Positions 4,205 through 52,720 of a DNA stretch of 64,000 nucleotides are shown here, one piece after another; position 1 is the first letter of the stretch; each line of letters opens with the position of its first letter. Where the stretch lies: NCBI RefSeq assembly GCF_011392125.1, contig NZ_JAAJBU010000001.1:372001-436000 (forward strand). Reading direction: 5' to 3'. The position numbers and the translations under genes were made by a program. Origin of the DNA: Flavobacterium lotistagni. Its GTDB lineage: Bacteria > Bacteroidota > Bacteroidia > Flavobacteriales > Flavobacteriaceae. The notes under the pieces were generated by a model. That model had not been told where the DNA came from, did not search any database, and saw only the letters and a program-made list of their open reading frames with translations.

Positions 4205-4290
4205 AGCCCTAGCCCTGATGGCAGCGGCATCCTTTTGCGCGATTTTTCTTCGTGCAAAAGATAGAGCGGACAGCAGGAATCAGCTTCAAA
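4205..4290 (+). repeat. Dispersed structured element, copy A
   Basis: Begins CCCTAGCCCTGATG and ends CAGCTTC followed by A6. A small hairpin GATG-GCAGCGG-CATC is followed by an 11-bp stem CTTTTGCGCGA / TCGTGCAAAAG and then AGCGGACAGCAGG. Five further copies are in the window (17.2, 33.0, 39.8, 42.4 and 52.2 kb). It lies in the 341-bp divergent gap between the flavin reductase and amylase genes; the rest of that gap (4291-4441) is AT-rich presumed promoter sequence with no further structure that I can identify. Confidence 0.85.
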
Positions 4291-4441
4291 AAACAACAAA
4301 ATATTTATCAACAATTCTCATTACTATAACGTTTTAGTTGCTGTATTGTAAAAAACTTTATGAGGTTATACGAGTATTTCGCAATAAAGTCTGAATTTAA
4401 TTTATAATTTCATAAAATATAAAACTCTAAAAACCAATTCA

Positions 4442-17188: not shown

Positions 17189-17276
17189 ACCCTAGCCCTG
17201 ATAGTAGCGGCTATCCTTTTGCGGCGGGGTTCGCCGTAAAAGATAATAGCGGATAGCAGGTTCTCGGCTCCTGAAT
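17189..17276 (+). repeat. Dispersed structured element, copy B
   Basis: CCCTAGCCCTGATAG...CTATCCTTTTGC. Compared with copy A the small hairpin changes to GATAG/CTATC and the central stem to CTTTTGCGGCG / CGCCGTAAAAG, so both stay paired. It ends in CAGGTTCTCGGCTCCTG, shared with copy D. It lies in the 286-bp divergent gap between the PPTase and ahcY genes. Confidence 0.85.
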
Positions 17277-17363
17277 CTTATTATTTTATTGATTTTTAAA
17301 ATCTTAGGACGCTAAACAACTTATAATTATTAACAAATACTTTTTTAATCTTGGGTTATTGTC

Positions 17364-32990: not shown

Positions 32991-33003
32991 TGTCTTTTTT
33001 TTT

Positions 33004-33113
33004 TAGAAGCTGATCCGGCTATCCGTTACAATCTTTTTTGTTTATCATCTTCCGGTTGCCAACGAACTTTTCGCAAACAAAAAAGGATTTCCACTGCTAT
33101 CCGGGCTAGGGCA
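33004..33113 (-). repeat. Dispersed structured element, copy C
   Basis: The minus strand reads CCCTAGCCCGGATAGC..., with GGAT/AATCC flanking, a central stem CTTTTTTGTTT / AAACAAAAAAG around a long loop of about 30 nt, then ACGGATAGCCGG and CAGCTTC. It is the most diverged copy and the one with the longest loop. It lies 3' of tadA, between convergent rng and tadA. Confidence 0.75.
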
Positions 33114-39755: not shown

Positions 39756-39846
39756 TCCCTAGCCCTGATCGCAGCGACATCCTTTTACGTAGCCTTAACG
39801 AAGTAAAAGATACAGCGAAGAGCAGGTTCTCGGCTCCTGAAAAAAA
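39756..39846 (+). repeat. Dispersed structured element, copy D
   Basis: CCCTAGCCCTGATCGCAGCG..., central stem CTTTTAC / GTAAAAG (7 bp), 3' part CAGGTTCTCGGCTCCTGA as in copy B. It lies between nrdA (3' end) and dgt (5' end), in the opposite orientation to both. Confidence 0.8.
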
Positions 39847-39874
39847 TAAAACAGCTACCCAAAGATAGCTGTTT
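39838..39874 (-). terminator. Terminator after nrdA
   Basis: On the minus strand AAACAGCTA TCTTTGGG TAGCTGTTTT followed by ATTTTTTT. Confidence 0.8.
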
Positions 39875-42315: not shown

Positions 42316-42372
42316 AGAGTTAGGTTTTAGTGGAGCAGCAAATCCCTTCACTGGCCCGGGTATTTGTAATTG

Positions 42373-42461
42373 ATTTTTTTTGGAAGCTGTTCCCGCTGTT
42401 CGCTGTATCTTTTGCTTTTTAAAGAAAAAACCAAAAGGATGCCGCTGCCATCGGGGCTAGG
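42373..42461 (-). repeat. Dispersed structured element, copy E
   Basis: The minus strand reads CCTAGCCCCGATGGCAGCGG, the hairpin GATG/CATC, a central stem CTTTTG-G-TTTTT / AAAAA-G-CAAAAG (11 bp with one G-G mismatch), then CAGCGGGAACAGCTTCC and A8. It lies in the 322-bp nrdB-nrdA gap, in the same orientation as both genes. Confidence 0.85.
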
Positions 42462-42529
42462 CAATCCGGAGTTTAGGCGTGTAGATTTTGGATTGGCGTG
42501 TAAGTAAAAATGTCGATTTTGTTATATCT

Positions 42530-52139: not shown

Positions 52140-52246
52140 CCCTAGCCCTGATGGCAGCGGCATCCTTTTGCGGGAATTTGCTCAACCAAAACCCGATAGT
52201 AACTTCGCAAAAGATATAGCGGACAGCAGGAAACAGCTTCAAAAAA
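52140..52246 (+). repeat. Dispersed structured element, copy F
   Basis: CCCTAGCCCTGATGGCAGCGG..., central stem CTTTTGCG / CGCAAAAG with an enlarged loop that contains GGG/CCC, then AGCGGACAGCAGG and CAGCTTC. The element ends in A7 that runs straight into the ATG of the GNAT gene at 52247. Confidence 0.85.
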
Positions 52247-52720
52247 ATGATTATAAGAAAAGGCCAAAAACATGACATGCCCGCCGTGCTGGAACTCATC
52301 CGGGAACTTGCCGTATTTGAAAAAGAACCCGATGCTGTAGTAGTAACGGTTCCTGATTTAGAGCGCGACGGCTTTGGTGATAAGCCTTTATTTCACACTT
52401 TTGTGGCTGAGTTAAACAGAGCAATTGTGGGCGTGGCCTTGTATTATTACCGCTATTCAACTTGGAAAGGCAAAACCATCCATTTGGAAGATTTGATTGT
52501 GAAAGAGAAAATGCGCGGCTCGGGAATTGGTTTTAAATTGTATGCCGAGGTCATTGCCCAAGGGAAAAGAGACGGCGTTCGCAGAATAGAATGGGCTGTG
52601 CTAGAATGGAATACACCTGCTATTGACTTTTACAAAAAATCAGGCGCGAAAGTGCTCGACGATTGGCGTGTGGCTCAGATGGATGAGCATGGAATCGAGA
52701 AATTTACGAATACAAAATAA
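52247..52720 (+). CDS. GNAT-family N-acetyltransferase (spermidine/diamine acetyltransferase-like)
   Basis: 157 residues. Acetyl-CoA-binding motif A is LIVKEKMRGSGIGFKLYAEV; motif B contains EWNTPAIDFYKKSGAKVLDDW. The segment FVAELNRAIVGVALYYYRYSTWKGKTIHLED is characteristic of SSAT-type (diamine/thialysine) acetyltransferases. It would acetylate a small amine, possibly a polyamine. The start codon directly follows the A-run of repeat copy F, so the element forms its upstream leader or promoter region. Aspartate kinase follows 66 bp downstream. Confidence 0.9.
   Translation: MIIRKGQKHDMPAVLELIRELAVFEKEPDAVVVTVPDLERDGFGDKPLFHTFVAELNRAIVGVALYYYRYSTWKGKTIHLEDLIVKEKMRGSGIGFKLYAEVIAQGKRDGVRRIEWAVLEWNTPAIDFYKKSGAKVLDDWRVAQMDEHGIEKFTNTK

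Follow-up and report, generated by a model that had tools for sequence, protein, structure and literature searches.

The Flavo-1 copies of the window

The window analysed here is a 64,000 nt stretch of the Flavobacterium lotistagni genome (contig NZ_JAAJBU010000001.1, positions 372,001 to 436,000), in which a structured element lies six times in the spacers around genes that include ahcY, rng, nrdB, nrdA and fbp. Copy 1 (4207..4298, plus strand; Rfam match 4207-4284, 72.3 bits) occupies the divergent spacer between a flavin-reductase-like gene on the minus strand and, on the plus strand, an alpha-amylase-like gene with a T9SS sorting tail, while copy 2 (17190..17281, plus; match 17190-17267, 66.4 bits) lies between a 4'-phosphopantetheinyl-transferase-like gene (minus) and ahcY (plus). 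Copy 3 (32994..33111, minus; match 33008-33111, 75.2 bits) sits behind rng, a gene of the RNase E/G family. Two copies border nrdA, namely copy 4 (39757..39847, plus; match 39757-39833, 58.1 bits) on its 3' side and antisense to it, and copy 5 (42371..42462, minus; match 42385-42462, 71.5 bits), which is sense within the nrdB-nrdA spacer. Copy 6 (52140..52251, plus; match 52140-52237, 63.8 bits) falls in the divergent spacer between fbp (minus) and a GNAT acetyltransferase gene (plus).

The identity of all six as Flavo-1, a known family, is secure. The Rfam model RF01705 covers each of them full-length at 58.1-75.2 bits (E 9.5e-15 to 4.9e-10), above its gathering score of 42 bits, and besides these six matches one tRNA alone passes the Rfam family thresholds in the window. 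A preliminary description, made from the letters alone, had given the same positions and strands, had named Flavo-1 as a possible family, and had proposed a covariance model run against the genome and Rfam as the check. Such a model, R1, was built from 21 copies of the window's genome (G000), and it finds the identical six and none extra, with the copies at 4207 and 42371 belonging to its 21 training sequences. Flavobacterium records lead the list of NrdA matches; among them Flavobacterium sp. CYK-55, at 94 % amino-acid identity, is also closest to the window genome on the nrdA tree. Four loci titled as Sphingobacterium thalpophilum or Bifidobacterium breve MAGs (L224, L226, L235 and L274) carry an NrdA 89-95 % identical to that of the window and are probably mislabelled bins.

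Copy number and distribution

Further copies, which the preliminary description had expected of a genuine family, are abundant: the window genome holds at least 149 by the Rfam model, from 150 candidates scored, a lower bound because 885 candidates were found at first look. In 794 kb of the genome R1 gives 50 matches at E up to 0.01, including a few weak ones, against 38 on the Rfam list, so that by proportion there are perhaps about 195 copies genome-wide. The copies read for this work number 148 of the 149, the remaining one lying outside the stretches taken. Flavo-1 also occurs in 21 of 31 relatives; these comprise 18 of the 19 genomes of the genus, the window's own included, with G018 the sole genus member without it; across the order its distribution is patchy (40 of 148 genomes, under stricter filters).

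Within G000 some copies appear related to one another. Those at C11:94742, C15:17703 and C15:46981 are identical over their inner 32 nt, as after recent duplication, and those at C11:4388, C14:191 and C15:32700 bear long palindromic apical hairpins that resemble each other (AAACCT...AGGTTT type), again as if from recent duplication. Among the matches listed, the flanks of many copies resemble each other via short intergenic repeats other than Flavo-1, and these swamped an attempt to cluster the copies by their flanks; at C1:120525, a short tandem CTCAGGCA unit lies downstream of the Flavo-1 copy.

Structure and covariation

On the top (Rfam) strand the 5' side reads CCCTAGCC-CxG-A-Ty-GnA-Gz-GGn-ATCC-TTTT and leads into a variable apical stem; the 3' side resumes with AAAAGAT and continues with a partner arm ending in AGCxGG, a tail AGCTTCT and an A-rich stretch. 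The Rfam model ends before the end of this conserved 3' tail (AGCTTCT, then A-rich). The top strand folds as a long hairpin made irregular by a bulged C and by internal loops that bear G.A; its apical hairpin is variable, and the loops differ among the at least 149 copies. Pairs were counted in 134 of 148 copies, the other 14 not fitting the simple pattern used. Pair 10-67 of the outer arm is T-A in 60, C-G in 39, G-C in 34 and A-T in one, with no wobble or mismatch, and pair 14-63 takes all four Watson-Crick types with five exceptions; the choices at these two pairs occur in wide combination. In the same 134 copies mismatches are conserved at 12-65 (A.G in 132, G.A in 2), 15-62 (G.A in 130), 17-60 (A.G in 133) and 20-57 (G.A in 130), and the bulged C is kept in 132.

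Covariation was measured on 21 own-genome copies drawn from the 30 best-scoring, with long-loop copies and two odd-flanked ones excluded. In this set 98.1 % of cells are paired, against 80.6 % in shuffled alignments, and 11 pairs have changed on both sides; none of 500 shuffles scores as high on four of five measures, and 10 of 500 do so on the fifth (further pair types), while slid controls of the same alignment reach 39-58 % paired. The covariation is real, and it spans the entire stem. The central covarying hairpin of the preliminary description thus stands as strongly covarying, whereas its restriction to the centre does not, since the outer arms covary too (pair 10-67). The same description had taken compensatory change as a sign that structure, of RNA or of single-stranded DNA, is under selection, and had named a lack of significant covariation as grounds for giving that reading up; the strength of the covariation bears the reading out.

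Two variants of the architecture were seen. Read by eye, ten of the 148 copies (G000 C12:81696, C13:67070, C3:46028, C3:182021, C3:213885, C3:266922, C6:4255, C6:6256, C6:29237 and C6:85009) have another foot. In most of them the 5' side has GCGT followed by AGGGAT or AAGGAT, and the 3' side has AGCCC or AGCCT, a possible side hairpin, and next ACGCCC; such a foot could close a three-way junction absent from the Rfam model. Three copies in three genomes (G000 C15:45573, L108 and L128) hold an extra module of about 45 nt, of GGAGTTCGGTGAA or GGAGTTCAGTGAA type, inside one arm and beside GATT, twice in the 5' arm and once in the 3' arm.

The folding strand, and DNA versus RNA

Where a single strand folds, G.T pairs should be tolerated on it and A.C pairs should not. 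Among the imperfect pairs of the own-genome copies, G.T exceeds A.C by 8 to 3 in the arms, by 52 to 7 at apical positions 1-8 and by 60 to 10 in total, a ratio for which the sign-test p-value is no true probability because the copies share descent. In 79 named-record copies, a set aligned to the model and hence leaning towards it, G.T outnumbers A.C by 33 to 1 (28 rows against 1), and in the group on the 3' side of nrdA, which is antisense to nrdA, by 7 to 0. This large excess identifies the Rfam strand as the folding strand.

Folding energies also favour the top strand, with mean z over 148 copies of -1.90 (top) and -1.02 (bottom) under DNA parameters and of -1.12 and -0.67 under RNA parameters. 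Because tRNA controls (n=28) shift alike from RNA to DNA parameters (-1.46 to -1.76), the larger DNA effect is a hint from a weak test of DNA versus RNA. Individual window copies have unremarkable RNA folds (z -1.77 to 0.15; DNA top strand -2.35 to 0.38), so that single-copy RNA folds alone would reveal no structure. Replication-strand bias is weak, at 37 (or 36, by placement of the skew switch) of 59 copies in G010 and 89 of 148 in G000, where the contig skew is noisy. DNA is preferred over RNA as the level at which the fold acts, at about even odds.

Orthologous sites

The sites at ahcY and nrdB-nrdA were compared in 30 loci each, from 112 matching genomes among 121 searched in the genus. 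Upstream of ahcY a copy is present in 20 of 30 loci and in the nrdB-nrdA spacer in 12 of 30, the window's own included in both counts, and every one has the orientation seen in the window. Two more nrdB-nrdA copies, both interrupted, came from R1 (L108 and L128). A second set, of named records, comprised the best 80 of 594 loci around nrdA, in which R1 made 88 matches; the two sets may share species. Here the nrdB-nrdA spacer has a copy in 23 of 80 loci, 21 in the same orientation and 2 opposite. The 3' side of nrdA has a copy in 25 of 80, all 25 antisense to nrdA as in the window, with one lying 692 nt off. At rng, 7 of 7 copies stand at the window site in the same orientation, and between fbp and the GNAT gene 3 of the 44 loci with both genes adjacent have a copy, all three in the same orientation. 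At p49725, a site empty in the window, 5 of 5 copies share one orientation, all or most of them weak matches. In the remainder of this set 17 matches were unplaceable, and two beyond dxs, where rng falls outside the DNA covered, point either way. Orientation is thus nearly fixed per orthologous site across species, and the earlier statement that copies have no fixed orientation to genes applies over the genome and fails site by site. A decayed remnant was seen by eye at ahcY in L149. Beyond the end of ahcY, and antisense to it, a further Flavo-1-like copy occurs in four genomes of the genus, L148 (512-593), L152 (54-133), L158 (505-588) and, weakly, L159 (501-556).

Compensatory change is clear within single orthologous sites, at the two sites tested. 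The ahcY orthologs have 99.3 % of cells paired and 27 double-change cells, the nrdB-nrdA orthologs 96.4 % and 19, and at either site none of 500 shuffles is as high in cells paired, double-change cells or covariation score. Two count measures do not exceed shuffles in these ortholog sets: pairs changed on both sides are matched in 50 (ahcY) and 96 (nrdB-nrdA) of 500 shuffles, and further pair types in 372 and 259 of 500. On the nrdA FastTree presence is clustered, needing 12 changes where shuffles average 21.2 (minimum 17), and 16 where they average 22.3 (minimum 17). Among the 19 records in which more than one site has a copy, mean identity is 0.615 for paralogs in a genome, 0.615 for non-orthologs between species and 0.644 for orthologs; ortholog identity reaches 0.82 in close pairs and lies above paralog identity in 46 of 79 species pairs. 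As copies within a genome are no more alike than unrelated sites of other species, gene conversion is unlikely. The sharing of sites could be due to recurrent insertion with site-specific orientation instead of descent.

A sequence-only model turned up no place beyond those of the structural model (47 rows against 50 in the own genome; 39 and 39 in the ortholog loci). The intact structure therefore does not simply reflect structural searching, although the sequence-only model came from the same intact copies and could overlook those that are badly decayed.

Gene context and transcription

The placement counts rest on home-made gene calls in stretches chosen around copies, with 5 of 148 copies unassigned. 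The other 143 fall into tandem (94), divergent (28) and convergent (21) spacers, whose shares of total spacer length are 67, 24 and 9 %. This set shows no preference for divergent spacers, and it uses convergent ones, if anything, more than expected; the corresponding counts in the unselected 794 kb (22, 11 and 4) are near background. Between co-directional genes (n=94) the copy is antisense in 60 cases and sense in 34. Copies crowd near gene 3' ends: of those whose 3' side faces a gene end, 34 of 75 lie within 25 nt of it (one of 76 being out of range), and of the 53 whose 3' side faces a gene start, 8 come as close. Many of the 24 nrdA-3' copies inspected lie just past a palindrome that resembles a terminator of nrdA, as judged by eye.

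The copies are not typical of sRNA genes. The Bacteroidota housekeeping -7 promoter motif, TANNTTTG, occurs in the 100 nt preceding 8 of 88 copies; shuffled flanks give 8.7 %, so that no promoter excess is seen with this single consensus. As a positive control, all 30 of 30 loci have the motif upstream of ahcY. At ahcY, 132-169 nt separate the end of the Flavo-1 copy from the start codon, and the promoter motif, within 100 nt of that codon, lies downstream of the copy. A role as an intrinsic terminator was considered and rejected: the 3' flank is A-rich, with T at 0.07-0.23 at positions 18-25 after AGCxGG, and there is no T-run on the folding strand. In the portions of the F. psychrophilum transcriptome study available to us, Flavo-1 matches are indifferent to transcript strand and many lie outside transcribed regions, while some 5' transcribed regions coincide with such matches (PMC9723704).

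Candidate mobilisers

The preliminary description would have been refuted by copies that are fragments of a transposon with terminal transposase genes. No match to PF01797 (Y1_Tnp) exists in G000, nor in the copy-rich G004, although the family is present in 17 of 31 genomes; a single RAYT-like query also gave no match in G000, in a search without positive control, and 12 Y1 loci of relatives, searched up to 1.5 kb each side, held no Flavo-1 match at E up to 1. RAYT/Y1 was accordingly rejected as the mobiliser, as was reverse transcriptase, found in 17 of 31 relatives (own included) and missing in the copy-rich G001, G003, G008 and G013. BLAST with one 96-base query gave no match in plasmid and phage collections, though an element this diverged makes the test a weak one. 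Comparisons of filled with empty sites, at ahcY and downstream of it, yielded no clean boundary and no target duplication of the kind expected of a MITE, the spacers being too diverged.

What Flavo-1 may be

Of the readings that the preliminary description left open, these data favour a REP/ERIC-like dispersed element over an sRNA. The best explanation, to which we give roughly an equal chance of being right or wrong, is that Flavo-1 is a high-copy REP/ERIC-like intergenic element kept for a strand-specific single-strand fold, in DNA likelier than in RNA. The orthologous sites would be old and vertically inherited, and the fold would act in DNA, where a strand left single in replication, repair or transcription would adopt it and be bound by a putative host protein. 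The element would have been spread by a putative mobiliser, absent from the searches made here, and the copies that the cell came to need would be held in place by selection. Against this explanation count the nrdB-nrdA copies, which are sense and may be co-transcribed, the weak replication-strand bias, the two ortholog measures that do not exceed shuffles, and the failure to find a protein partner, an empty site with clean edges or a target duplication.

A selfish, non-autonomous mobile repeat with no host function, whose orthologous copies are recurrent insertions or slow-decaying relics, would suit the patchy distribution in the order (40 of 148 genomes), the proximity to gene 3' ends, the three own copies with identical inner 32 nt and the several with similar apical palindromes, the decayed or interrupted copies in L149, L128 and L108, and an ortholog identity barely above that of paralogs over all pairs. 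We nevertheless consider it unlikely, given compensatory changes within single orthologous sites, an orientation fixed per site, a sequence-only search that yields no further broken copies, the lack of a Y1 transposase match in G000, and the one copy without a BLAST match in the plasmid and phage collections. Arms kept matched by mutation bias instead of selection can be set aside with more assurance, as highly improbable: long hairpins can self-correct by quasi-palindrome template switching, but that process should also erase internal mismatches, and those at 12-65, 15-62, 17-60 and 20-57 are conserved together with the bulged C.

Two further readings have the copies work as RNA. That they are cis-acting elements of untranslated regions, serving stability, processing or stoichiometry (as of nrdB versus nrdA), seems rather improbable; the sense, intercistronic position at nrdB-nrdA in 21 of 23 named-record loci, the tolerance of G.T on the top strand and some F. 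psychrophilum 5' transcribed regions that coincide with Flavo-1 matches (PMC9723704) speak for it, and set against these are the 60 of 94 copies antisense to co-directional genes, the 25 of 25 antisense copies behind nrdA, and the ahcY copies, which end 132-169 nt before the start codon and upstream of the promoter motif. Less probable still are genes for trans-acting small RNAs, as the Rfam type 'Gene; sRNA' has it. The strong covariation of the 21 own copies would be expected of them, the 2010 table of Weinberg, in the part available, enters the family as RNA 'y' and cis-regulatory 'n' (PMC2864571), and the palindrome seen by eye beside many nrdA-3' copies could end transcripts from either side; yet such genes sit poorly with at least 149 copies of differing loops, with the lack of any excess of the -7 motif (8 of 88 copies; background 8.7 %, control 30 of 30), and with a transcriptome that, in the portion seen, is strand-indifferent (PMC9723704). 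Most copies are probably mislabelled as sRNA, and the pairing counts show which strand folds.

Returning to the preferred reading, a dispersed element kept for its single-strand fold, a more specific form can be put forward as a possible but doubtful proposal: that Flavo-1 is a chromosomal single-strand DNA-fold element and not an RNA family, with about 150-200 sites per genome, a folded form bound by a conserved flavobacterial protein, and nrdBA and ahcY copies under purifying selection for a chromosome-level role in replication, repair or nucleoid organisation. The copies at nrdB-nrdA, behind nrdA and at ahcY look selected in place, which makes the question testable by single-site allele swaps.

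Comparison with known systems

Flavo-1 is among the most abundant annotated bacterial sRNA families, according to the part of the survey available (PMC9029176), and Rfam labels RF01705 an sRNA gene, a label that the promoter and orientation data given here do not support. The accessible text of the open literature on Flavo-1 offers no explanation of its function, and that on Flavo-1 or REP elements proposes no DNA role for it (PMC2864571, PMC9029176, PMC9723704, PMC3733652, PMC6006769). REP elements with RAYT/TnpA-REP (Y1) are likewise short, intergenic, high-copy and hairpin-forming, with one folding strand, and in Bacteroidetes, as far as the source is available, TnpA genes of subclass 2.6 are reported to lie between 'atypical secondary structures' that recur at other places in the genome (PMC6006769). 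Flavo-1 differs from these in being longer, in its purine-bearing internal loops and in showing no GTAG foot to the eye, and also in that no Y1_Tnp was found in G000 and no Flavo-1 at 12 Y1 loci of relatives. ERIC/IRU repeats are imperfect palindromes of about 80-130 bp, intergenic, with no known mobiliser and retained at orthologous sites. Flavo-1 is like them in size, palindromic form, intergenic position, lack of a known mobiliser and orthologous retention, whereas its sequence is unrelated, its phylum is different, and the strand-specific fold is a feature of Flavo-1.
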